Position numbers and translations under genes: made by a program
From: a virus
Virus record (IMG/VR): IMGVR_UViG_3300042731_011319
Location: 1 to 64,000 of that record
Direction: 5' to 3' (one strand)
Length of the DNA stretch: 64,000 nucleotides
Part shown: one piece after another, positions 4,597 to 64,000 of the stretch
Numbering within the stretch: the stretch's first letter is position 1
How the letters are laid out: every line of letters begins with the position of its first letter
Notes under the pieces: model-generated
Told to the model about the DNA's origin: nothing
Database searches by the model: none
What the model saw: the letters and a program-made list of their open reading frames with translations, nothing else

Positions 4597-5358
4597 TTAA
4601 TATTTCCAATTAAATCTATTAATTTCTTCTCTGTAATATTTGGAGACAAGGTTTTTAGTTTCAACATTGTAGTAATCTCTATAGTTTTTTATAGAAATAG
4701 GTGTATTTGATTCGATCAATTCTTTTTTGCTGTCAAGTATATTTTTTTGACCAAGCACTTCAGATGACCAAGATAAACCTGCTTCTGAGCGAGATGACAA
4801 ATCTTTTGTATATGGAAATGTATTATATAATGAATCAATATCGACATTTAAATAATCACATAGTGAGCCTAATTGATCCTGAATTTGATCATATTTGATA
4901 ATATGAACATCCTCTTCACCAATCAACCAATCATAGCATCGAAGTGGAGCAATATAATCAGTTAAATTATATTTTTTTAAAAATATTTCGTCTGGAGTTT
5001 CAGTAAAGAAACAATAATTGTGAGTATCCTTAATTTCATTTACATAACAATTCAGCCAACTAGAAAAATCAACAAAGGAAGCCCAAATATAAGGAATATG
5101 ATAGATAGATACTAAGTGATCCCAAGGGTTGCGAATAATAGAAAATTTAAAATAATTTTTGATTTTCGAGTCAACCTGCACAAGTTGATTTAACGTCCAA
5201 TGTTTTGCGTCTTTTCCTTTTATGAAAGTAACTTCTTCCCAAAATTCTGAAGAAGATAACTTATTTGCATAAAAGATATTATAAATTTGATTGCACAAAT
5301 AACTACCAGAAGTTCTTGGTATATGTATAAATGCTAATTTTAGTTGATGGCAAATCAT
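4597..5358 (-). CDS. sulfotransferase (P-loop, family 2-like)
   Basis: 253 residues. The 5'-phosphosulfate loop is LAFIHIPRTSGSYL at residues 8-21 and the 3'-phosphate-binding segment is FSIIRNPWDHLVSIYH. Both belong to PAPS-dependent carbohydrate sulfotransferases. It would transfer sulfate from PAPS to a hydroxyl of a glycan, leaving PAP. The start ATG shares one base with the stop of the upstream helical protein. No signal peptide or membrane anchor, so it acts in the cytoplasm. Confidence 0.85.
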   Translation of the reverse strand: MICHQLKLAFIHIPRTSGSYLCNQIYNIFYANKLSSSEFWEEVTFIKGKDAKHWTLNQLVQVDSKIKNYFKFSIIRNPWDHLVSIYHIPYIWASFVDFSSWLNCYVNEIKDTHNYCFFTETPDEIFLKKYNLTDYIAPLRCYDWLIGEEDVHIIKYDQIQDQLGSLCDYLNVDIDSLYNTFPYTKDLSSRSEAGLSWSSEVLGQKNILDSKKELIESNTPISIKNYRDYYNVETKNLVSKYYREEINRFNWKY

Positions 5359-8959: not shown

Positions 8960-9742
8960 TTAATATTTAACAGTTTGAGAGGAAACAATAAAAAATGGAT
9001 TCAGTAAGTTTTCTTTATTATATAATAAAGGTTCTTTAGTGTCAGCAACAAGAACTTTAGCACCACTTTCTTCGGAAATTATTTGTGGAGCGCAAGTGTC
9101 CCATTCCATGGTTGGGCCAAATCTAGGGTAAATATCAGCTTGACCTTCTGCCACCAAGCAAAATTTTAGGGAGCTTCCGATATTAATAGTTGCTACTTCG
9201 TAATTATCTTTTAATTTATTAATAAACTCTTCGGTTTCTTTATTTAAATGAGACTTGCTCGCAACTACATTGATCTTATTTTCTTGGAAATTGTGGGAAT
9301 AATTTGCATATATGCGCTCATCATTTTTAAATGAACCAACTCCTTGGATTCCGTAATACTGATCTTGTTTTTTGGGGCAAGCAACATAACCAAATACAGG
9401 CTCATCTCCTTTACATAGGGCGATATTAATGCAAAAATCATCCCCGCCCGCAACAAATTCTTTGGTTCCGTCAATTGGGTCGATTAACCAATAATAATCC
9501 CAATCTTTGCGGTCTTCATAATTGATATGCTGATCCTCTTCAGAGATAATATTTGACACTTTTGTGTTAGCAAATAGAAATTCCCTTATCCTTTTGTTGG
9601 AATGAAGATCGGCCTCGGTAAGAGGGCTTTTATCATCCTTCTGCAAAGTCTCAAAACCATTTGCTTGTATCTCTACAACTTCTTTGGAAAGTTCGGCACC
9701 AAAAGATAGCAGTGAATCGATAAATGTTTTATTTATTTGCAT
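8960..9742 (-). CDS. cysQ: CysQ-type 3'(2'),5'-bisphosphate nucleotidase (PAP phosphatase)
   Basis: 260 residues with the inositol-monophosphatase fold motifs: SPLTEADLHSNKRI near residue 38, ISEED, then the metal site WLIDPIDGTKEFVAGGDDF, and EWDTCAPQIISEESGAKV near the C-terminus. GTKEF(V) after DPIDGT is diagnostic for CysQ/BPNT rather than plain inositol phosphatases. It hydrolyses PAP, the by-product of sulfotransferases, to AMP and phosphate. With seven sulfotransferase-fold genes in the window, this is a fitting accessory enzyme. Length and motifs are complete. Confidence 0.92.
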   Translation of the reverse strand: MQINKTFIDSLLSFGAELSKEVVEIQANGFETLQKDDKSPLTEADLHSNKRIREFLFANTKVSNIISEEDQHINYEDRKDWDYYWLIDPIDGTKEFVAGGDDFCINIALCKGDEPVFGYVACPKKQDQYYGIQGVGSFKNDERIYANYSHNFQENKINVVASKSHLNKETEEFINKLKDNYEVATINIGSSLKFCLVAEGQADIYPRFGPTMEWDTCAPQIISEESGAKVLVADTKEPLLYNKENLLNPFFIVSSQTVKY

Positions 9743-9744
9743 AT

Positions 9745-9999
9745 TTATAGTAATTTCATTTGATCAGGATGATCGACATTTTCTGATTCTAGCATATTTT
9801 CAGCAGTTTTGTCAATAGTTTTTTTGCTTCTTAACCAATTTCTTTGAGCCATGCGCACGACAAAGCGCATAAAAGCAAAAGCATAGACTTTATTTAAAGA
9901 TATAGATTGGCTCGAGCCCGTGTTGTCAAATAATGTAAAGACTTTAGAGTCTTCATCGTACTCAAAGGTCGCATTTTTAAGTTCTTTTTTAATTATCAT
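9745..9999 (-). CDS. hypothetical protein, 84 aa
   Basis: The ATG at 9999 (MIIKKELKNATFEYDEDSKV) is chosen because an early promoter ends 7 bases upstream; a longer frame would start inside the promoter. The protein has a short beta hairpin (FTLFDNTGSSQSISL) and a helix KVYAFAFMRFVVRMAQRNWLR. No family recognised. It precedes cysQ by two bases, so both share the promoter. Confidence 0.6.
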   Translation of the reverse strand: MIIKKELKNATFEYDEDSKVFTLFDNTGSSQSISLNKVYAFAFMRFVVRMAQRNWLRSKKTIDKTAENMLESENVDHPDQMKLL

Positions 10000-10006
10000 C
10001 CATATA

Positions 10007-10035
10007 AGTATAGATGAAAGTTCAACAAAAGTCAA
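10007..10035 (-). promoter_or_regulatory. early-type sigma70 promoter driving 9745..9999 and cysQ
   Basis: Minus strand: TTGACT (10035-10030), 17 bp, TATACT (10012-10007), 7 bases, ATG. It places cysQ in the early expression class. Confidence 0.78.
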
Positions 10036-10053
10036 GCTACAAATTTAAGCAAT

Positions 10054-10080
10054 AAAACCCCCCTCATTTGAGGGGGTTTG
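10054..10080 (-). terminator. rho-independent terminator after the BspA-repeat gene
   Basis: A near-perfect inverted repeat, AAACCCCCCTC-ATTT-GAGGGGGTTT, lies 25 bases beyond the stop of the gene at 10105. On the minus strand it is followed by TTATTG rather than a long T run. It separates the adhesin transcript from the early promoter at 10007. Confidence 0.75.
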
Positions 10081-10104
10081 AGTTGAGTAAAGTTTCTTTA
10101 ATTT

Positions 10105-12789
10105 TTAAAAAATTGCCGCAACTGCTTGGACAGAATCATTAAACATGACCACTTCAGGGATCTCGGCGGTATAGTCAAGTCCAACTGATTGAAAAATGAT
10201 ATTTATATCATCGCTTCCAAGCCAGTTTGAGAAGCTTTGGCTTACATTGCTATTAACTGTCCATCCAGCATAATAATAAGCATCAACGGGTGTCGTTGAA
10301 TCTACAGATAACGATGTCCATGAATTAGATTCTGATAGTGAATCTGTAAAAAAGTATGAAGCCATTTCACTGCCATCAGAGCTGTTTATCAGGCCGCAAG
10401 GCATCCAGCCATAAACATCTGAATCGAAATAAGTATTCATAGATAATGCAACATCTATTGCCAAACTATCTGAAGAATACCCTCTTTTAACGATGAATGC
10501 ATACATGTATGCTGCAGCCACACAACTATGAGGTGCTTGAGCGGAATCAGCCGTCAAATTGTACAAATCTAGCCTGCCGGCACTTCCATTTTCAGTAATA
10601 GTAACTTCTGGCTCAAACGAAATCCAGCCATCAAACACACTATTAACACAGGGATCACTTGACCCCAATGAGCTCTCATCGGAATCTTCTTCGATTACCG
10701 TTAGATTATCTAACTCCCAAGTCGCACGACGAGTTTTAAATACATCATTCTTTAGGTCATCTGGAAAAGGATCATCGTCCGCTCCAAATAGTATAGGGAA
10801 GCCTATGCAGTTTTTGATAGTATTACCGAAAGTTTTCAGCACATCCTTGATCGTATCGGAAGTAGATACCGAATTAACAGCATTAGAAAGTGCAGTTGTA
10901 CCAGAGAGAAAATTGGTGACATTTTCACATTTTGTGCCTTTTAATTTCCAACCAGGAAATAACTGACTATTAAATACAGTATTATCCTTAAACATATTTT
11001 TTACAGATATTGCATTACTTACATCCCATCCTTTAACTGGCTGATTAAATACAGACGACTCAAACATGCCACTAAAATCAACTTCTTTTTCATTTTCAGC
11101 GAGGTTTTGGCCAAATTGTCCAGCCCATGCGGGTAGTTGTGAATCAAAAGCCGTGTTGCTTTTGAACATGTTCTTGAAAGATTTTACTTTGCCAATATTC
11201 CAGCTATTGGTAGATTCGCCAAAAGAACTACCCTCAAACATACTTTCGAAACTTTCGACATTAGAAGTATTCCAGTATTCAGTTCCTGGCTCAGCCCAAA
11301 CAGTCTGATTAAATGAAGAGGCATTACAAAACATTCCTTTCATAGTGGTTGCAGAGCCAGTTTTCCATTTACGAATTGGTTTATTGAAAGAGCTCGCACC
11401 GCGAAACATGTTCTTGAACGAATTCACATTAGAAACATCCCACTGAGCTGAAAAACCATTGTATTCTTTTGCGTTATGAAACATTCCCTCCATTTTTTGA
11501 GCCTTAGAAACATCAATTCCTCCAAGATATTGCTTGAAATCAGCATTATTTTTAAACATGTTCTTGAAATTAGTAACATTAGAAGTATTCCAGAATTCAT
11601 TGATACCTGCTCTATTGTAAACAGTACCCTCAAGGAAGCTTTCGACACTTACAGTTTGGCTAACATCCCAATGCTTAATATTAACTGCTTTATAAGCGGA
11701 GTACTCGAAGCATCCAGTCAAATCGGTTAAATTACCCCCACTGACATTATTAAGCTTAAAATGATAAACATAAGAAGAACAGCCAGACATAAATCCAAGC
11801 ATGCTTGTAATTCCATCCAAGTTCAGATTTGAAAGCACACTGCTGTACTTAAAATTAGTACATCCTGCAAACATATGGTCAATTGCTCCAGAGAAAGACT
11901 GAGTATGGCCAGCCATGTTTTCAACTCGCTGCATGCCATAATTTGCAAAATCTCCAACTCCATGCAATTTAAAATTAGTGCCCAAATTGATTCTGAAAGC
12001 TTTACGTTTATTCATTGGGTTGATACTGTTACTATTAAAAGTAAAAATATCATATGCAGATTCATCGACACTGTAGCGCTGAGTTAACATGCCGCTCCAT
12101 TCACTTAAAGCAGGTGCAATACTTGTATCAACAGAATCGACAATTTCAAACTCAGAACTGTATGTAATCCCATCGATGTCATAAAAATATTGCAAAAAGC
12201 CTGATTGTGTTTTTGTGTCTAGCTCGCCGTTAGAATAAGTTGCATCTAAATGAGAATTAGATTCAAGTCGAAAATTAACATCATTAGATGGGATACTGTA
12301 TTTTTCACCCTTAACAAGTTTGATCCCATCAGAACTACTAACCCCAATATAATCCCCACTAAACTTAAACACTAAATCAGTTTGATTTATTGACATGCTC
12401 AGATCGCCTTTTTGATTGTTTAAAAACACATTAGAGCCATATCGTGCGACAGACTGCTTGGGTAATGCCAAATAAGATTCCGTATCGGAGGCGAAGTTTT
12501 TCCAGCCGCCCGTTATTGAAACTAATTTTAAACCTGCATTACTGTGATATCTAATTGTCTGTGAAGTATTGTCCGTGTGGATAAGGTTGACTTTTTTGTC
12601 GGAAATAACAATACCATTATTACTGTTATTTGAATATGTAATATTCTGTTGTCCGCCCTCGCCCCAATTAACAGTAGCGCTAAATATGGGGTTACTGCTA
12701 GTAATCCCGGGAGTGTCTGATGCCCCAGCAATTACGAACGATACAATATCTTGGGGTGTATAATAACCTTTGAATTCTAATTGAGCCAT
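10105..12789 (-). CDS. giant BspA-type (DUF285) repeat protein, putative adhesin or tail protein
   Basis: 894 residues. About residues 230-640 contain at least ten units of the DUF285/BspA pattern: DVSNV-x-SFKNMF-x-GASSFN, repeated as W(D/N)xSNVxSFxxMFxxxxxFx. Residues 1-220 look like PKD/Ig-type beta domains; the last 200 residues are a separate Ser/Asp-rich domain with no signal anchor. BspA repeats form beta-solenoid-like surfaces used for binding host surfaces. With no signal peptide and a position next to the glycan genes, a virion adhesion fibre is more likely than a secreted protein. It has its own promoter motif and terminator. Confidence 0.75.
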   Translation of the reverse strand: MAQLEFKGYYTPQDIVSFVIAGASDTPGITSSNPIFSATVNWGEGGQQNITYSNNSNNGIVISDKKVNLIHTDNTSQTIRYHSNAGLKLVSITGGWKNFASDTESYLALPKQSVARYGSNVFLNNQKGDLSMSINQTDLVFKFSGDYIGVSSSDGIKLVKGEKYSIPSNDVNFRLESNSHLDATYSNGELDTKTQSGFLQYFYDIDGITYSSEFEIVDSVDTSIAPALSEWSGMLTQRYSVDESAYDIFTFNSNSINPMNKRKAFRINLGTNFKLHGVGDFANYGMQRVENMAGHTQSFSGAIDHMFAGCTNFKYSSVLSNLNLDGITSMLGFMSGCSSYVYHFKLNNVSGGNLTDLTGCFEYSAYKAVNIKHWDVSQTVSVESFLEGTVYNRAGINEFWNTSNVTNFKNMFKNNADFKQYLGGIDVSKAQKMEGMFHNAKEYNGFSAQWDVSNVNSFKNMFRGASSFNKPIRKWKTGSATTMKGMFCNASSFNQTVWAEPGTEYWNTSNVESFESMFEGSSFGESTNSWNIGKVKSFKNMFKSNTAFDSQLPAWAGQFGQNLAENEKEVDFSGMFESSVFNQPVKGWDVSNAISVKNMFKDNTVFNSQLFPGWKLKGTKCENVTNFLSGTTALSNAVNSVSTSDTIKDVLKTFGNTIKNCIGFPILFGADDDPFPDDLKNDVFKTRRATWELDNLTVIEEDSDESSLGSSDPCVNSVFDGWISFEPEVTITENGSAGRLDLYNLTADSAQAPHSCVAAAYMYAFIVKRGYSSDSLAIDVALSMNTYFDSDVYGWMPCGLINSSDGSEMASYFFTDSLSESNSWTSLSVDSTTPVDAYYYAGWTVNSNVSQSFSNWLGSDDINIIFQSVGLDYTAEIPEVVMFNDSVQAVAAIF

Positions 12790-12907: not shown

Positions 12908-13537
12908 TTAAGCGGGTTTTTCGAATTTATAACCAAACCTAATGATGTCCGAGTGATATTTTTTTGCCACCATTCCGATAGTTTCTTCATCATAATATTC
13001 GCTATAATGCTTATGCTTGGTAGTATTTTGGGTAGGTAAGGCTTGATATGGAATGCCTATCTCTTGGCATGCATGCTTGTAGTCATCCGGAAGATTTTCG
13101 ACTTTACCTATAAAATTAAAATCTTCGGTTATCCATTTTAGTTGAGATGGTTCATGCATCCCCTGAAACGCGCTTTTAGTTAAAAAATCTTTAAATGATT
13201 GAGTACCTTCCTTCACTTTTAGGCAATCTTTGTAATAACCGGGAGCGCATAATTGAATTTCTTTATCGTCAGCACATTTAAGTGTATAAAAATATTGAGA
13301 AACAATTCTCGAAAAAGGATTACGGACAAAGGCAAACCTATAGTATTCATTCCAGGCCAAACCTTCCTGATTAAAATATTCCTCCATTTTATTGCCAGTG
13401 ACATGATGATAAAAATAAGATTTTCGGCCACCAACAGCTTTTACATCAGACCACCTGCATAAACGGTGACGCATGGCGGTAGTGGCATTTTTTGGTATCG
13501 ATATAAAAAGAAATTTTTTTCTGTGAGATAATACCAT
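12908..13537 (-). CDS. sulfotransferase (family 2-like), tandem copy 1
   Basis: 209 residues. PAPS 5' loop FLFISIPKNATTAM at residues 9-22; 3' segment FAFVRNPFSRIVSQYFY. The last 40 residues (KHYSEYYDEETIGMVAKKYHSDIIRFGYKF) closely match those of the next gene, so they are tandem duplicates with diverged acceptor regions. Compact size is typical for bacterial and phage family-2 carbohydrate sulfotransferases. Confidence 0.88.
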   Translation of the reverse strand: MVLSHRKKFLFISIPKNATTAMRHRLCRWSDVKAVGGRKSYFYHHVTGNKMEEYFNQEGLAWNEYYRFAFVRNPFSRIVSQYFYTLKCADDKEIQLCAPGYYKDCLKVKEGTQSFKDFLTKSAFQGMHEPSQLKWITEDFNFIGKVENLPDDYKHACQEIGIPYQALPTQNTTKHKHYSEYYDEETIGMVAKKYHSDIIRFGYKFEKPA

Positions 13538-13560: not shown

Positions 13561-14211
13561 TTAAGTGGGTTTTGCGAATTTATAACCAAACCTAATTATA
13601 TCTGCGCGATATTTTCGAGCAACTATTTCCATTGTTTCTTCGTCATAGTATTCGCTATAATGTCTATGGGGAGTTTGATTTTTTATTGGAAGAGGTTTTC
13701 TGGTAATTCCCAGTTTTTTACAAACTATATCGAAATCAGTTTGCAAGGTTTCGAATCTGCCGATAAAGTCGCAGTCAACTATTTGAGATGCTTGATCTGA
13801 AAACCAAATGCCATCTTCAGCGGTATGATTAACTAAATTGATAGATACAAATTCTTTAAAATTACTTGGGACCACAAAGTTCTCTGAGCATTTTACGCCA
13901 TCGTGTTGCTGCATATATTTATATATAGACACTGCTCGATCAAAAGGATTACGCACAAATGCAAACTTAAAATAAGAATCTATTAATTGTCTGTCATCCT
14001 CGCATGTGTGATTCTTTAATACTTTATAGCTTACATGATTAGGGTCATCATCGTAGTTTTCATACAAAAATTGAGGCTTTAAAGCGTCAAAAACTTTATT
14101 GAACTGATGTTCTGTGCATTCATCGGAGCATTCCAATAATGAATATAGTATAGATGTAGAGGCAGTTTTAGGGACTCGAACGAAAACAGATTGTGTATTC
14201 CAAAAAATCAT
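13561..14211 (-). CDS. sulfotransferase (family 2-like), tandem copy 2
   Basis: 216 residues. 5' loop VFVRVPKTASTSIL, 3' segment FAFVRNPFDRAVSIYKYM, C-terminal HRHYSEYYDEETMEIVARKY shared with the neighbouring copy. The middle region differs, which would change the acceptor sugar. It ends 23 bases before the next start and follows the GT10 gene by 3 bases. Confidence 0.88.
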   Translation of the reverse strand: MIFWNTQSVFVRVPKTASTSILYSLLECSDECTEHQFNKVFDALKPQFLYENYDDDPNHVSYKVLKNHTCEDDRQLIDSYFKFAFVRNPFDRAVSIYKYMQQHDGVKCSENFVVPSNFKEFVSINLVNHTAEDGIWFSDQASQIVDCDFIGRFETLQTDFDIVCKKLGITRKPLPIKNQTPHRHYSEYYDEETMEIVARKYRADIIRFGYKFAKPT

Positions 14212-17758: not shown

Positions 17759-18514
17759 TTAAAAGTTTTGGGTTAATATTTTTTTTGCGGCAGCGACTCT
17801 GATTGAATCTAAACAATCTAAATGTTTATACTCAGGGAGAAATTTTAATTTAAATCTAGCAGCTGAATGAGGTATATGCCAAGCTCGAGTGGCCAGATCA
17901 GTTCCGGAATAAACTTGTATGTGTTGATTAGTAATGTCGATGTTATATTTTGAATATAAAGATTTATAATCTTTGTTGTGGTCTTGAGTAAAGTTGAAAT
18001 AAAAAAACTCTTGATCGTGATAATGGTCTGCATTGGCAATTAAATAATTCAACCTTTCTTTTGTGATGTCTACAAATGCTTGGCATAAATTTTTAAAATA
18101 TTCTGCGGTTCCTGATGCTATAGATGGGCATGTCCCATCTAAGAAGGTTAAACTAGAATCATTTAAATTCCAATCCTTTTTGCTCGATCCATTATTGAAT
18201 ACATCGTAGTCTGATACAAGAACGAATTCATTTAGGTTATTGACAGTAGAGTATGCCATCCATCTCAGATAGCAATGCAGACCATATGCACTCAAAGCTT
18301 TTCCTGTAATCTGGTGACACAAGTCTGACATCTGTTCGGATAGAGTTTTAAAAAAAGGAGAATTTTGCGCATCTTTTAAGCTTACAATGCAAGGGTCAAA
18401 TCCAGCCCTACTCCAACTTTCGCTCCAGAGATTTAAAAGCTCTTCTTGCTTGTTGAAGGTGTGAGTGTTTCCAGGTTTATTGTTTAGCCCTTCATAGTAT
18501 GTGAGTATTTTCAT
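17759..18514 (-). CDS. GT-A fold glycosyltransferase-like protein
   Basis: 251 residues. LRWMAYSTVNNLNEFVLVSDYDVF contains a DxD-type metal motif (SDYDVF) after an RWxA helix, as in small GT-A capsule transferases. Earlier WSESWSRAGFDPCIVSL and later YHDQEFFYF support this. The donor is unknown. ATGA overlap with the upstream sulfotransferase shows co-expression. Confidence 0.65.
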   Translation of the reverse strand: MKILTYYEGLNNKPGNTHTFNKQEELLNLWSESWSRAGFDPCIVSLKDAQNSPFFKTLSEQMSDLCHQITGKALSAYGLHCYLRWMAYSTVNNLNEFVLVSDYDVFNNGSSKKDWNLNDSSLTFLDGTCPSIASGTAEYFKNLCQAFVDITKERLNYLIANADHYHDQEFFYFNFTQDHNKDYKSLYSKYNIDITNQHIQVYSGTDLATRAWHIPHSAARFKLKFLPEYKHLDCLDSIRVAAAKKILTQNF

Positions 18515-19161
18515 ATAGTATATCCTTTTAATTCTATTACGCCTTTTTCTTTGAGTGATACAAGATCTATTAGCTCTTGATTATATATATCATGCATGTT
18601 TTGCGAATTAGAACTTTTGTTCCCGTGATGTAAAATTGGAGGACTTATTTCTACTTGCTCGCACAAAAAGGCAAATTCATTTGATAAATTTTCGAAACTA
18701 GCAATATGGTCTACGATAATTTGACCGTTTTGATCACAATAATATTCATCTTGGGCAGGATTGTTGATTATAATGTTTTTGAGTATAGTTTGTTCGTCAG
18801 AATTGGAAAATAATGAAACACAATATTGTCCTTGATTAATTTCTGCCGCGCCCCAAGCTATCGATTCATCTCTACGCAAAAACTTGTCGGCGTAATTTTT
18901 AAAATATTTAAAAAAGCTAAAGTATCTAGCCCATGGATTGCGAACAATAGTGAATTTAAAATAGTCGTTCCAATCGAAGTTGTGCTTGGCGAATTGTTTT
19001 TTCGCTCGAATGGCTGTATCGTGCTGATAAAAGTCTGCTTCAACAAATGGTTTGCCAACTATATCAATGTATCCTAGCGGATACAAGCTTTCGCGAAAAG
19101 AGCGTGTGCCAGTTTTTGGGATATCAATTGTTATAAATTTATGAGAATGAGAAATTAACAT
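18511..19161 (-). CDS. sulfotransferase (family 2-like)
   Basis: 216 residues. 5' loop FITIDIPKTGTRSF at residues 9-22; 3' segment FTIVRNPWARYFSFFKYF. Conserved WNDYFKF precedes the 3' segment as in the copy at 12908. It is distinct from the tandem pair at 12908/13561 in its C-terminus, so it probably has another acceptor. It overlaps both neighbours (4 and 7 bases). Confidence 0.86.
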   Translation of the reverse strand: MLISHSHKFITIDIPKTGTRSFRESLYPLGYIDIVGKPFVEADFYQHDTAIRAKKQFAKHNFDWNDYFKFTIVRNPWARYFSFFKYFKNYADKFLRRDESIAWGAAEINQGQYCVSLFSNSDEQTILKNIIINNPAQDEYYCDQNGQIIVDHIASFENLSNEFAFLCEQVEISPPILHHGNKSSNSQNMHDIYNQELIDLVSLKEKGVIELKGYTI

Positions 19162-20575: not shown

Positions 20576-21475
20576 TTATTTACAATATCTCTCCCATAAT
20601 TTTCTGTCCCAATATGTACGATCTAGAAACGTTTGTTGAATACTTGGATCTAGGTCTTCGAATTTTATTTTTATTTTTTTGGAAGTTTTGTTCTTATTAA
20701 TATGAGTGACTACAACATCGGACTCAATATCTGATTGAAGGATACCATAAGCACCGTGAAATACATTATTAATTAATTCATCTACTCCGCTAATATCGGA
20801 TATTCTAAAATACTGAAGGTATTGATTCGCTAATGTAAAATGTCTGGGCTCAATCACTTGAGAATCTTGCATGTCAAGCAAATGCCTTATAATCCAACTA
20901 TCTTCTAACTCGCTAGATTCAAGATATTCAAGTAAATTGGCAGAAACAATCGAATCGTGAGTCGGTTCATGCTTACTACTGTTACCCTTTATGTAATGAT
21001 ATAGCGACATAGACCTTGCAAAAGGATCCCGCAGAACTGTAAAGTTTAATTCATAGTCTCTTTTTGAAGCATGTTTAATCTTTTCTACAGCATCTCTTTG
21101 TATTGATGCTCCGGGAATAGTAGGATCAACACTAATCGAAAAAACTTCGACATCTCCATTATTAATAGAATCGATAAAAGATTCCAAGTCAACATAATCA
21201 GTTACTTCATCACTGAATTTATGTTTTTTAAAATTGTTATTTATTGTTGCAACATCTGTAGGGGTATGAATGCAGCAAGTCAATTGCTTTCCTTCTTTTA
21301 ATAAAACAATAGATCTCCTTATTCTTTTGGAAGTCCATCCTGGTATTTGATGCTTGCCTAAATATAAGTTGTATTTTCTGCATAACATCATCATCCAACT
21401 TAAAACATAAGTTCCTGCATTCTTGGCTATATGATAAAAAACAGGAAGATGTTTAGGATCTTTAACTATACTCAT
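20576..21475 (-). CDS. sulfotransferase, heparan-sulfate-type P-loop enzyme
   Basis: 299 residues from the ATG at 21475, the start that lies 13 bases after a GTGTA element. 5' loop PVFYHIAKNAGTYVLSW; 3' segment FTVLRDPFARSMSLYHYIKG. It is longer than the other copies, with a 60-residue insertion between the loops and EDSWIIRHLL in the C-terminal half, closer in plan to uronyl 2-O-sulfotransferases. A cytoplasmic enzyme with no membrane anchor. Confidence 0.82.
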   Translation of the reverse strand: MSIVKDPKHLPVFYHIAKNAGTYVLSWMMMLCRKYNLYLGKHQIPGWTSKRIRRSIVLLKEGKQLTCCIHTPTDVATINNNFKKHKFSDEVTDYVDLESFIDSINNGDVEVFSISVDPTIPGASIQRDAVEKIKHASKRDYELNFTVLRDPFARSMSLYHYIKGNSSKHEPTHDSIVSANLLEYLESSELEDSWIIRHLLDMQDSQVIEPRHFTLANQYLQYFRISDISGVDELINNVFHGAYGILQSDIESDVVVTHINKNKTSKKIKIKFEDLDPSIQQTFLDRTYWDRKLWERYCK

Positions 21476-21484
21476 GACCTTATA

Positions 21485-21493
21485 TAGGTACAC
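21485..21493 (-). promoter_or_regulatory. late-type promoter motif for 20576..21475
   Basis: Minus strand AAGTGTACCTATATAAGGTC then ATG; GTGTA ends 13 bases before the start. Confidence 0.5.
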
Positions 21494-22415: not shown

Positions 22416-22481
22416 TTACCACTTATATTTTTCCCAAATACAAAAAGTATATAAAACTGCTAATAATAATATTGTTGTCAT
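22416..22481 (-). CDS. tiny membrane peptide, 21 aa
   Basis: The ATG overlaps the TGA of the pyrophosphatase gene. The whole peptide is one hydrophobic segment (MTTILLLAVLYTFCIW) followed by EKYKW. It lies in the 120-base gap between the pyrophosphatase and the next gene and has the same design as the peptides at 176 and 33546. Evidence is positional and compositional only. Confidence 0.4.
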   Translation of the reverse strand: MTTILLLAVLYTFCIWEKYKW

Positions 22482-22984
22482 TTTACGATTCTGTCTACTA
22501 TGATTTGATGTGCGAATTTTTTGTCATGCCAGCCGTGTACTTTAACTTTATCACCTGACATAGATAAATCTTTGTAATGAGCAAAGAAGTTTTTTGAAAT
22601 CTGAAGAAAGCTCTCTTCTAGGTCTTTGATGTTAGAATATTGTCTGGTATAAAAATTTGGAACACCGACTAGCTTGTAATCCTTCTCTCCCTCGTCGTCC
22701 ATATCTAACACCCCAAGAATTTTGGTTTCCACAACTGTAGCTCGCTTGATTGGTTCAGGGCTGATAACTAAGATATCAAGGGGATCGCCATCTTCACATA
22801 AAGTGCCAGGAACAAACCCATAACTAGCTGGATAAACCATAGCAGAGTTTAAGCATCGATCATACATAAAGACACCAAGCTTCCCATCATATTCATATTT
22901 ATTTTTAGATCCTTCTTCGATCTCGATCACCGCATTAACAACTTGAGGCGATCTTTCATGTATTGGTAAGTGGTATAAGTTCAT
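22478..22984 (-). CDS. ppa: inorganic pyrophosphatase, family I
   Basis: 168 residues, full length for bacterial PPase. Active-site blocks: EIEEGSKNKYEYD, YPASYGFVPGTLCEDGDPLDIL (the DGDPLD metal loop) and DMDDEGEKDYKLVGV. It hydrolyses PPi to phosphate. In this phage it could pull PPi-releasing steps: DNA synthesis, sugar-nucleotide formation and sulfate activation. It is coupled (4-base overlap) to the nucleotidyltransferase gene, which itself releases PPi. Confidence 0.93.
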   Translation of the reverse strand: MNLYHLPIHERSPQVVNAVIEIEEGSKNKYEYDGKLGVFMYDRCLNSAMVYPASYGFVPGTLCEDGDPLDILVISPEPIKRATVVETKILGVLDMDDEGEKDYKLVGVPNFYTRQYSNIKDLEESFLQISKNFFAHYKDLSMSGDKVKVHGWHDKKFAHQIIVDRIVK

Positions 22985-23379
22985 TTTATTCCAGTCAAAT
23001 CAGAAGAAGAGCGAATTTTATCACCAAGTCCATCAATAACTTGTGTTTCGTTTTCTTTGCAGATTTTGTATTCAGGTATTTCTCCATTGCTGCGGTCGCC
23101 CCCATTGGCAAAAACATCAGGTTTAATTAAATCAAGAGTCTTGCATACAGTTTTGTCGTCATCGATAGACATTACAGCCTCATCAACACCTTTAATTTGA
23201 GATACAATTTCTAGACGATCATCTTCACACATAAAAGATTTTCCTTTTTTTAAAACAGCTTGTTTGTCGTTATTGACAATAACAATTAAATAATCACCAA
23301 GTGATTTTGCCATTTTAATATATTCCAAGTGACCAATATGGATTGGGTCAAAGTAACCACTAATTGCAATTTTTTTCAT
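22981..23379 (-). CDS. cytidylyltransferase-like nucleotidyltransferase (RfaE/TagD type)
   Basis: 132 residues from MKKIAISGYFDPIHIGHLEY (ATG at 23379, ATGA-coupled to the upstream gene). GYFDPIHIGH holds the HxGH signature; GDYLIVIVNND and the CEDDRLEIVSQIKGVDEAV block match HldE C-terminal and glycerol-3-phosphate cytidylyltransferases. KIRSSSDL near the end is the SxT/SxR motif in variant form. It activates a sugar- or glycerol-phosphate to a nucleotide derivative. Together with the PPase this looks like a two-gene activation unit. Confidence 0.85.
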   Translation of the reverse strand: MKKIAISGYFDPIHIGHLEYIKMAKSLGDYLIVIVNNDKQAVLKKGKSFMCEDDRLEIVSQIKGVDEAVMSIDDDKTVCKTLDLIKPDVFANGGDRSNGEIPEYKICKENETQVIDGLGDKIRSSSDLTGIK

Positions 23380-23753
23380 GTAAGATTTTTTTGTATTTGT
23401 CTGAAAATGTAAGCCATACACTCGCTATCTGTAAGCTTTAGAGCTCGATATATTTCTAAATCTATAACTTGCTCTATATCTAAATCATTAAAAGGTATTA
23501 ATTCATCTTTATCTTCCTCGTACAAGCAGACATCGATAATTTTATTTGTGCCAATCGGTTGGGTGACATATATTTTATATATATCCATGTAACTTTTAGG
23601 CAGCTCTAATAATCGTTTATATATTTTACTGAAATTAATAGTTAATTCAATAATTGCATGATCTGATAAGTGCTCGTCTTTATAATATTCTCTATAAAGA
23701 TGATTAAACATTGATTTAAATGTAACCTTTTGTGCTAATTCTCTAAGTGTCAT
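23376..23753 (-). CDS. conserved hypothetical protein, 125 aa (DUF6557-like)
   Basis: The opening TLRELAQKVTFKSMFNHLYREYY and a later IDVCLYEEDKDELIPFNDLDI follow a small family I associate with DUF6557, of unknown function. ATGA overlap with the nucleotidyltransferase. Helical N-terminus, beta strands in the middle. The family assignment is from memory. Confidence 0.5.
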   Translation of the reverse strand: MTLRELAQKVTFKSMFNHLYREYYKDEHLSDHAIIELTINFSKIYKRLLELPKSYMDIYKIYVTQPIGTNKIIDVCLYEEDKDELIPFNDLDIEQVIDLEIYRALKLTDSECMAYIFRQIQKNLT

Positions 23754-30583: not shown

Positions 30584-30796
30584 TTAATATACTTTTTCAG
30601 GAGAGCTTGTATAAATAAGAGCAACTTTGTGCATAGTAGTTTGATCCCATTGCTTAAGCATGTTAACTAATATTTCCGCACGATATTCTGCATCAGCTTT
30701 AGATGAATAATTTTTAGATTCAATCCGTCTGCCATCACGAGTAACAACATAGACATTATCACGATCTTTTGATACATTTCTTTTGATTAATTTCAT
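30584..30796 (-). CDS. small hypothetical protein, 70 aa
   Basis: Start ATG at 30796 (MKLIKRNVSKDRDNVYVVTR) set by an early promoter 10 bases upstream; a longer frame across the divergent gene is rejected. NVYVVTRDGRRIESKNYSSK then DAEYRAEILVNMLKQWD suggests a beta hairpin plus helix found in many small phage proteins. Operon leader for dut. Function unknown. Confidence 0.65.
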   Translation of the reverse strand: MKLIKRNVSKDRDNVYVVTRDGRRIESKNYSSKADAEYRAEILVNMLKQWDQTTMHKVALIYTSSPEKVY

Positions 30797-30890: not shown

Positions 30891-31697
30891 ATGACAAAAC
30901 GAAAAATACTTATCATGGGACTACCGGGATCAGGCAAAACAACACTTGCCGAAATACTGGTCAGGAAACTAAATGCAGCATGGTTTAATGCAGATGCAGT
31001 AAGACAAGAAATCCATAAAGATTTAGGATTTACTGCGGAAGATAGGTTAGAACATGCTACTCGCATGGGTAAGCTATGTGATTGGGCGAAATTAGGCGGC
31101 TCTTATGTAATCGCTGATTTTGTATGCCCAACTAAAGAAGCAAGAGCTGCATTTAATCCTGATTTTGTAATCTGGGTAGATAGAATCCAAGAGGGCAGAT
31201 ATGAAGACACGAATAAAATGTTTGAGAAGCCTGAAAATGCAGATGTAATTCTGCGAGAAGGATCCCCTGATGAATGGGCGCAACAAGCTCTTGAGGGTTT
31301 GTATAAAACAGAGGCATGGGACAACCAAGCTCCAACAGCATTACTCATAGGAAGGTATCAACCTTTTCATATTGGACATAAAACACTAGTTGCAGAATCG
31401 ATTAAAAGAACAGGTCAATGCTGTATTGCATTGAGAGATGTTGGAGGAATCGACGAAAAGAATCCTTACGATTTCAACAAAGTAAAAGCAGAAATAGAAT
31501 CAGCATGCGTTGAATTTGGTAATAAAATAAAAATTGTAGAATTGCCAAATATTACCGATGTTTTTTACGGACGTGGAGTTGGTTACAATATTGAACAACT
31601 GGAATTAAGTAAAGAACTTCAAGAAGTCTCTGCAACCAAAATTCGTGCAGGAGAAATTGGGCAAGACGGCAAACCTTTAGGTAAAAGACCAGAGTAG
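30891..31697 (+). CDS. cysC: adenylylsulfate (APS) kinase fused to a NadM-like nucleotidyltransferase
   Basis: 268 residues. Residues 1-145 match CysC: P-loop GLPGSGKTTLAEIL, FNADAVRQEIHKDLGFTAED (in place of DGDNVR...LGFS), RLEHATRMGKLCDW, then VIADFVCPTKEARAAF. APS kinase phosphorylates APS to PAPS, the sulfate donor. Residues 165-268 start LIGRYQPFHIGHKTLVAES, with the HxGH site, NPYDFNKVKAEIESA and SATKIRAG, as in NadM-type adenylyltransferases. This second half could make APS, NAD or a CDP/ADP compound; ATP sulfurylases belong to the same superfamily. One of five plus-strand genes, next to the tmRNA. Confidence 0.8.
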   Translation: MTKRKILIMGLPGSGKTTLAEILVRKLNAAWFNADAVRQEIHKDLGFTAEDRLEHATRMGKLCDWAKLGGSYVIADFVCPTKEARAAFNPDFVIWVDRIQEGRYEDTNKMFEKPENADVILREGSPDEWAQQALEGLYKTEAWDNQAPTALLIGRYQPFHIGHKTLVAESIKRTGQCCIALRDVGGIDEKNPYDFNKVKAEIESACVEFGNKIKIVELPNITDVFYGRGVGYNIEQLELSKELQEVSATKIRAGEIGQDGKPLGKRPE

Positions 31698-33631: not shown

Positions 33632-34168
33632 TTATCTGTATTGTTTTCTTAGTAGACGCCAGCGATCAGAATCGATAGGTTTGCTGCCATTATCTATAGC
33701 ATACAACATATCTATGATTTCGTCAAGCGAATTATAAATATATTTGTGGGGCATCATGCCAAGCATCCATAATGGGGTCTTTGCTTTGCCGCCTTCCATG
33801 CTGATAAAGATTGGTTTTTTCATGCGTACTGCGGTGACGATTTCTTCGCCGCTTCCCCAGCTTGCAACTTCTGGTACAAGATGGGCAACAATAAAATCAC
33901 TACGATCAACAAGGTTCAAGTCATATGAACGAACAGTCTTCATTTTCTCTGCGACACGATCATATTGCTTGGTCTTCATCCAAGTCTCCATCTCAACACG
34001 AGAAGCTTCGTCTTCTTCCACATCCTTAATAAAAGGTTTTTCATAGGGATTAAAACAGGTGATATTAAGGTCCGAAAGTTTTTCGGTTACTTCTTGTCGC
34101 CAGTCTCGACCGCTCAAGTACTGCATGTGGCCAACTAAATATGTTTTTGTTTTATATAAAAGATTCAT
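33632..34168 (-). CDS. nucleoside 2-deoxyribosyltransferase-like protein
   Basis: 178 residues. YLVGHMQYLSGRDWRQEVTE and CFNPYEKPFI, then VDRSDFIVAHLVPEVASWG and EEIVTAVRMKKPIFISME, follow the Rossmann-like fold of nucleoside deoxyribosyltransferases and related N-glycosidases. The catalytic Glu probably lies in GSGEEI. It could salvage or hydrolyse nucleosides or nucleotide second messengers. Has its own early promoter. Confidence 0.75.
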   Translation of the reverse strand: MNLLYKTKTYLVGHMQYLSGRDWRQEVTEKLSDLNITCFNPYEKPFIKDVEEDEASRVEMETWMKTKQYDRVAEKMKTVRSYDLNLVDRSDFIVAHLVPEVASWGSGEEIVTAVRMKKPIFISMEGGKAKTPLWMLGMMPHKYIYNSLDEIIDMLYAIDNGSKPIDSDRWRLLRKQYR

Positions 34169-63482: not shown

Positions 63483-64000
63483 TTAAAATTGGTAATTATA
63501 TTTATTAATATCCCCTTGATATATATTATACACAGCTCTTTTACTATCTTCCATATATAATTTTCTATAGTCTGAATTATTTGTTGAGTTAATTTTACGA
63601 AGATTAGTTCTTGGTAGTTGAAGTTTTTTTAAAATGTATGCATAGTCTTCTTGAATGTTTTCAAATCTAGCAAGATAATCAATATTAGAATCAAGGAAAT
63701 AATCATAAGCTTGAAAATGGATGCCAGATTGAAAAGAACCCTCTTCCCGTTTCATTAGTTTCATGAAGTCAGGGATATGATTGACGAATTCATTAAAATC
63801 CATTTCGTTTGCAGCATCTGATATAATGCTATTTCTTTTATACCAATGATGTCCTGGTTTTAGTTTGCGAAAATATTTATACGCCGAAACTACCCGATCA
63901 TATGGATTGCGAATAAAAGTAAACGAAAAATAATTAGAATGTTCAGAGTGATAAGACATTGGGGAATGACCAGAAAACCCAAGCGACTCTAAGTTAAGCT
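63483..64000 (-). CDS. sulfotransferase (family 2-like), 5' end outside the window
   Basis: The 3' segment FTFIRNPYDRVVSAYKYFRK is clear, and the C-terminal half (ENIQEDYAYILKKLQLPRTN) is typical. The frame stays open upstream of the first ATG to the window edge (reading LNLESLGFSGHSPMSYHSEH), so the 5' loop of PAPS binding is beyond 64000 and the true start is not visible. Seventh sulfotransferase-fold gene in the window. Confidence 0.8.
   Translation of the reverse strand, partial: LNLESLGFSGHSPMSYHSEHSNYFSFTFIRNPYDRVVSAYKYFRKLKPGHHWYKRNSIISDAANEMDFNEFVNHIPDFMKLMKREEGSFQSGIHFQAYDYFLDSNIDYLARFENIQEDYAYILKKLQLPRTNLRKINSTNNSDYRKLYMEDSKRAVYNIYQGDINKYNYQF

Follow-up and report, generated by a model that had tools for sequence, protein, structure and literature searches.

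A compact two-domain phage protein as a candidate synthase of 3'-phosphoadenosine 5'-phosphosulfate

Sulfate activation is one of the basic ways by which sulfur enters biology, and 3'-phosphoadenosine 5'-phosphosulfate (PAPS) is the universal sulfate donor. To our knowledge, two types of ATP sulfurylase have been described that are unrelated to each other, Sat and CysD-CysN (CysDN). Animal PAPS synthase (PAPSS1/2) carries on one chain of about 620 residues a kinase of adenosine 5'-phosphosulfate (APS) followed by an adenylyltransferase of the HxGH superfamily. Here we analyse a gene of the virus record IMGVR_UViG_3300042731_011319, of whose 109,722 bases the first 64,000 form the window (the whole stretch of DNA analysed). 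Its product of 268 residues, P0001, has the two halves in the same order, and the proposed overall reaction is identical. We consider it probable, from sequence, structure models and gene linkage, that P0001 is a bifunctional PAPS synthase, both activities being predicted ones and the putative sulfurylase half being NadM-like and neither Sat nor CysDN.

Compared with the animal enzyme, the sulfurylase half of P0001 falls outside PF01747 (the Sat family) and is without the QxRN motif and the accessory domains of Sat, and its kinase has no lid. With Sat itself, a member of the same superfamily, it shares HxxH and S(A/G)TxxR, and it has a GR[D/G] loop that may stand in the corresponding place, yet it amounts to about 105 residues and has neither the N- nor the C-terminal Sat domain. 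CysD-CysN (NodP-NodQ) has in common with it the same proposed product, a DUF2061 partner and a context of nod-factor sulfation, whereas CysD belongs to the PP-loop enzymes, is powered by the GTPase CysN and has no homology to the P0001 domain. Archaeal NadM, the nearest by sequence, shares GRxQPxHxGH, an NP motif and a C-terminal S(A/G)TxxR; P0001 scores far below the curated NadM cut-offs, reads RD for IGS, and has a GR[D/G]VGY signature and the fusion to an APS kinase. The gene and its parts are as follows.

30891..31697, plus strand: fusion gene (268 amino acids), APS-kinase-like domain plus compact HxGH nucleotidyltransferase, a proposed PAPS synthase
30891..31310, plus strand: APS-kinase-like domain without canonical lid, residues 1-140 (Pfam, PDB profile and structure matches)
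30918..30941, plus strand: P-loop motif GLPGSGKT, residues 10-17
30993..31046, plus strand: D35, R38, F47 and R52, aligned with D480, R483, F492 and R497 of Mycobacterium tuberculosis CysC
31197..31223, plus strand: RYEDTNKMF, residues 103-111, with residue 104 always F or Y and DTN invariant
31329..31646, plus strand: HxGH nucleotidyltransferase core, residues 147-252, about 105 residues (profile and model)
31350..31379, plus strand: GRYQPFHIGH, carrying the HxGH motif, residues 154-163
31434..31466, plus strand: R182-D183 to N191-P192 (conservation), R182 being invariant and a candidate sulfate/APS contact
31566..31586, plus strand: YGRGVGY, residues 226-232, the GR[D/G]VGY family signature
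31629..31646, plus strand: SATKIR, the SxTxxR motif of the pyrophosphate (PPi) side, residues 247-252

The gene opens with ATG and is oriented opposite to its neighbours, in a record of phage-type genes that includes glycosyltransferase- and sulfotransferase-like genes judged by eye. An in-frame TTG upstream, at 30783, would lengthen P0001 to 304 amino acids; the shorter start is preferred because relatives begin at the same position. In a Pfam scan APS_kinase matched residues 6-87 (E=3e-13) and CTP_transf_like residues 152-176 (E=5.6e-5), both halves are covered by PHROG 10255, labelled 'kinase' (E=4.9e-54), and the AlphaFold model of the whole protein has a mean predicted local distance difference test score (pLDDT) of 85. 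The family is represented in 145 IMG/VR stretches by a first scan and at least 594 with the family profile, and in at least 586 cellular genome contigs, of which 80 were kept (mostly SAR11, some SAR86, SAR116 and others); its range takes in phages, SAR11/SAR86/SAR116, rhizobia and haloarchaea. Since the fused architecture is kept over hundreds of loci, it is neither chance nor a misjoin. The first-pass annotation had called this open reading frame (ORF) an APS kinase fused to an HxGH nucleotidyltransferase, and the ATG-started frame on the plus strand, the Pfam and PDB profile matches and the retention of the architecture all bear this out. Its two motifs, GRYQPFHIGH and SATKIR, are present; its kinase half, drawn at residues 1-145, spans residues 1-140 here, and its second domain, drawn at 165-268, has its core at about 147-252. 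PHROG 10255 and the NCBI 'adenylyl-sulfate kinase' records represent the same family and name the kinase half only, which leaves the other half, with the function it probably has, unannotated, and no description of the fusion was found in the literature searched, which was limited to open-access papers.

The kinase half almost certainly acts on APS. When the PDB was searched with the family profile, the first 22 matches were all APS kinases (best E=1.5e-13), and the P0001 kinase model matched APS kinases at VIA Z 17.5-19.5 over about 140 residues with a root-mean-square deviation of about 2 Å, the best match of another kind being gluconate kinase (Z 17.0), with other kinases lower. Foldseek matches of the whole model were likewise dominated by APS kinases. 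P0001 passes the PF01583 gathering score (50.5 vs 21.1 bits), as does haloarchaeal P0003 (155.7 bits), and fails the apsK equivalog cut-off (TIGR00455; 45.7 vs 138.7 bits). The residues that hold APS in M. tuberculosis CysC are Phe492, Phe576, Arg497, Asp480, Lys562 and Arg483, and the ligand site also includes P-loop Lys456 and lid Arg559 (PMC4373884). P0001 K16 aligns with K456, and over 198 family sequences it is conserved, together with D35, R38, F47 and R52, at 99-100%, with R38 and R52 invariant. Residue 104 stands seven positions before a second aromatic (residue 111), as CysC F576 stands before the Tyr of FTGxDxPY, and from this spacing it is the putative counterpart of F576, the second APS-stacking residue. 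The lid RDxKGLYxKA (R559, K562) is present in haloarchaeal P0003 and missing from the P0001 kinase, which is about 19 residues shorter. Alignment and model together predict for this half an APS kinase whose lid is reduced.

Modelled alone (pLDDT 91), the C-terminal domain takes an HxGH nucleotidyltransferase fold nearest to PPAT and NadM (Z about 10-11); no ATP sulfurylase stood among its listed Foldseek matches, which excludes nothing. Invariant in 42 diverse members, haloarchaea included, are G154, R155, Q157, P158, H160, G162, H163, R182 and P192, and also P219, G227, R228, V230, G231, Y232, S247, T249 and R252. In Sat, two loops (QxRN and GRD) and the motifs HxxH and SGTxxR build the phosphosulfate site (PMC3779200). 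The nucleotidyltransferase keeps HxxH (H160, H163) and SxTxxR (SATKIR; SGTETR in haloarchaea), and its members have GRD or GRG at GR[D/G]VGY, where, judging by the fold, Sat has GRDHAG. Pfam scans of P0001 and of haloarchaeal P0003 gave no match to PF01747, and the CysD PP-loop and CysN GTPase domains were not found in P0001 by Pfam and NCBIfam scans. Because there is neither a QxRN motif nor a PF01747 match, this half is by its sequence not a member of the Sat family, whatever its activity. It also fails both curated NadM cut-offs (TIGR01527, 22.8 vs 181.2 bits; NF002243, 24.3 vs 127 bits), and the stretch between the two blocks matched by the hidden Markov model is ~24 residues shorter in P0001 than in archaeal NadM MJ0541.

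A role in sulfate activation is suggested by genetic linkage in haloarchaea, rhizobia and phages. On 8/8 haloarchaeal plasmids, from six genera, a sulfotransferase lies upstream of the fusion, usually with a small ORF between, and a YqcI/YcgG gene follows the cassette on seven of the eight (e.g. L260:8736-9482, after the fusion at L260:7853-8710) and lies upstream on the other. The haloarchaeal protein aligns colinearly with P0001 through both domains (30% identity, E=3e-31), and haloarchaeal kinases have the full lid and, at 159.6 and 160.3 bits, exceed the apsK equivalog cut-off of 138.7. Where the domain is joined to an APS kinase of equivalog level and lies beside a sulfotransferase, its most economical role is APS supply. 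In Rhizobium sp. BK376 a single ORF of 555 residues reads Sulfotransfer_2, kinase and nucleotidyltransferase in series; an internal Met ahead of the kinase leaves two polypeptides possible. The next gene in SAR116 locus L111 is a sulfotransferase (E=1.8e-25), the one adjoining the fusion in an Asaia metagenome-assembled genome (L095) is marginal (21.9 bits, cut-off 22), and in alphaproteobacterium L152 cysQ is followed by the kinase gene and then by the nucleotidyltransferase gene.

The nod cluster on a plasmid of Microvirga lotononidis runs nodI, nodJ, a sulfotransferase at the place of nodH, and then the fusion, cysD and cysN. This CysN has no CysC domain, the bifunctional model matching only its first 441/632 positions, and ends in DUF2061. 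The kinase motifs of the Microvirga fusion are kept, while its nucleotidyltransferase reads HESH, NR, HGLDLGY and SPTAVQ at the positions of HxGH, NP, GRxVGY and SxTxxR, motifs that at least 241 of the 242 other copies retain. So far as sequence can tell, Microvirga offers a natural experiment: with no CysC present the kinase has been retained, and next to a canonical ATP sulfurylase the nucleotidyltransferase has decayed. DUF2061 stands between the sulfotransferase and cysD in a nod cluster of Mesorhizobium, and among the genes adjoining the fusion in phages it is the most frequent (17 of 101 non-redundant loci, in nearly all cases as the next gene); as a marker of sulfation it is only partly specific, several other plasmid copies having no sulfation neighbours. 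This small predicted membrane protein (L077:10749-10982, L262:10178-11767, L321:3989-4222) is a candidate sulfation-linked membrane partner.

The window itself encodes further proteins of PAPS metabolism.

22478..22984, minus strand: inorganic pyrophosphatase (PF00719, E=3.4e-47)
8960..9742, minus strand: CysQ-like 3'(2'),5'-bisphosphate nucleotidase, for recycling of 3'-phosphoadenosine 5'-phosphate (PAP) (TIGR01331, 227.4 bits, cut-off 228.8)
4597..5358, minus strand: sulfotransferase (Sulfotransfer_2)
12908..13537, minus strand: sulfotransferase (Sulfotransfer_2)
13561..14211, minus strand: sulfotransferase (Sulfotransfer_2)
18511..19161, minus strand: sulfotransferase (Sulfotransfer_2)
20576..21493, minus strand: sulfotransferase-like (Sulfotransfer_2, marginal)
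63483..64000, minus strand: sulfotransferase, running on to 64070 of the record

Over the whole record the phage encodes 10 Sulfotransfer_2 proteins, and close phage relatives of the window CysQ score above the TIGR01331 cut-off. CysQ starts 2 bases downstream of the fusion gene in phage L254 (the same phage as L016), and in L255 a pyrophosphatase gene precedes CysQ. Each of the nine viral contigs in which a close CysQ was found also has the fusion; a profile scan added only four more distant ones. Within the window's phage lineage, where rows are related and partial and all p-values only indicative, CysQ was found in 6/9 members with the fusion vs 0/11 without (p=0.002, absence resting on a pattern scan), and sulfotransferase copy number was higher with the fusion (4.8 vs 2.0, p=0.02). 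The linkage seen in haloarchaea, in Rhizobium, with CysQ and in Microvirga gives strong indirect support to the first-pass guess that the second half could be a minimal sulfate adenylyltransferase; the same linkage breaks the tie with NAD (nicotinamide adenine dinucleotide), which that annotation had held to be an equally possible product, and makes NAD synthesis unlikely.

In the proposed pathway, which follows that of animal PAPS synthases, the C-terminal HxGH domain would adenylate sulfate (ATP + sulfate -> APS + PPi) and the N-terminal kinase would phosphorylate the APS 3'-OH (APS + ATP -> PAPS + ADP). The PAPS would then supply the phage sulfotransferases, which probably modify glycans of the host or phage surface, while the phage pyrophosphatase would clear PPi and CysQ the PAP left by the sulfotransferases. 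Pyrophosphatase and kinase may pull the unfavourable first step forward, as pyrophosphatase and APS kinase are reported to do for the sulfurylase step (PMC3734648).

Among cellular genomes that carry the gene, the 35 from marine SAR11, SAR86, SAR116 and related bacteria, mostly partial, include three with Sat and one with CysD, and 31 have neither; the other CysD match among hosts is Rhizobium. Sulfotransfer_3 matches were found in 18 of 20 hosts tested, 16 of them above the cut-off, and PF03567 in only 4/37 cellular genomes. A CysQ-family match in 19/20 hosts means little, because all 14 of 14 control genomes have one too. In SAR11 each half is a gene of its own, the two lying side by side (the count of split loci is 46, which includes a few from SAR86 or others). 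We think it likely that the ~105-residue NadM-like domain is a further, non-orthologous class of ATP sulfurylase and forms with the APS kinase a minimal PAPS synthase, the main PAPS route in many SAR11, SAR86 and phage genomes without Sat and CysDN. As a separate observation, three SAR11 pairs (L160, where the pair is intact and spans 9983-10785, L121 and L114) lie between Rieske-type oxygenase and enoyl-CoA hydratase-like genes, near DmdA- and dimethylglycine-dehydrogenase-like genes (all by eye), and in L123:1703-4777 an ORF of 743 residues is inserted between the kinase and nucleotidyltransferase genes.

Several observations weigh against assigning PAPS synthesis to the fusion. The profile of the second domain matches adenylyltransferases of nicotinamide mononucleotide (NMN) at E=2.2e-9, its nearest relative by sequence being NadM, and in the place of the QxRN sulfate loop of Sat, absent from P0001, it has GRxQ. 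The lid missing from the P0001 kinase is the carrier of two CysC ligand contacts. In the window's phage lineage, members that have the fusion and members that do not differ little in the presence of a sulfotransferase (8/9 vs 7/11, p=0.22). The SAR11 pairs adjoin glycine-betaine/DmdA-type genes (by eye) and not sulfotransferases, and in some SAR11 genomes (L114, L120, L147, L148, L161) the nucleotidyltransferase is intact with the kinase broken or undetected, a pattern that could stem from gaps in the assemblies, from a CysC encoded separately or from some other function of the nucleotidyltransferase. In Stenotrophomonas phage Bhz60 (L085:11559-12735) the fusion gene overlaps the end of a NADAR-domain gene, and no sulfation genes were seen near it. 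Finally, the kinase could draw on APS made by the host.

This last point underlies the rival that survives best, although we regard it as improbable: only the kinase would serve sulfation, fed by host APS, and the nucleotidyltransferase would act in regulation, in PPi or APS sensing, or on another substrate. The lack of QxRN fits such a division, as do the kinase-only copies in phage L054 and on Methylosinus and Rhizobium plasmids, beside IS elements, and the retention in Microvirga of the kinase alone. Against this, the near-complete conservation of HxGH, GRxVGY and SxTxxR argues for catalysis, the decay of these motifs occurs beside a canonical ATP sulfurylase, and most marine hosts are without a detectable Sat or CysD to supply APS. 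NAD salvage by a NadR-like pairing of ribosylnicotinamide kinase and NMN adenylyltransferase, perhaps as a counter-defence tool, is very doubtful: it would suit the proximity to NadM and the adjoining NADAR gene of the Stenotrophomonas phage, but the kinase matches APS kinase and not NadR (TIGR01526, 18.5 vs 341.15 bits), the second domain is missing the ~24 residues between the two matched blocks of archaeal NadM, and linkage to sulfotransferases and CysQ recurs, up to fusion with a sulfotransferase. It was set aside as the main explanation. That the nucleotidyltransferase activates a glycan acceptor (ADP- or CDP-sugar type), the kinase making PAPS from host APS, is hardly credible, for although many fusion loci lie in polysaccharide regions and the phage has a second, HldE-like nucleotidyltransferase, the domain goes together with APS kinase and sulfotransferases in archaea, in rhizobia and in phages, whose glycans are expected to differ, and its decay beside CysD-CysN would be left unexplained.

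Some neighbouring genes may be recorded in their own right. At 22478-23421 of the window (minus strand) the pyrophosphatase gene overlaps a gene for an HldE/TagD-like nucleotidyltransferase (rfaE_dom_II, E=1.6e-20), the second HxGH enzyme of the phage. A nucleoside 2-deoxyribosyltransferase-like gene (33632-34168, minus strand) is conserved close to the fusion in many related marine phages, and a DUF1501/sulfatase-clan-like gene (by eye) recurs in marine phages, at L024:5448-6749 and at eight further loci, mostly within 3 kb of the fusion. Beyond the window, at 100858-103350 of the record, an ORF appears by eye to have both RCC1-like repeats and a C-terminus like the formylglycine-generating (sulfatase-modifying) enzyme. 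The NADAR overlap in Bhz60 is a possible link to ADP-ribose chemistry.

The role of phage sulfotransferases has been called unclear (PMC10580990). If P0001 is a PAPS synthase, these enzymes would gain a self-contained supply of PAPS, and the source of PAPS in SAR11-type bacteria that have sulfotransferases and no known ATP sulfurylase would be explained. The domain would then be a third form of ATP sulfurylase, about a quarter of the size of Sat, and many annotations as 'kinase', 'adenylyl-sulfate kinase' or 'hypothetical protein' would be corrected; it might also serve biotechnology as a compact enzyme with which to regenerate PAPS.
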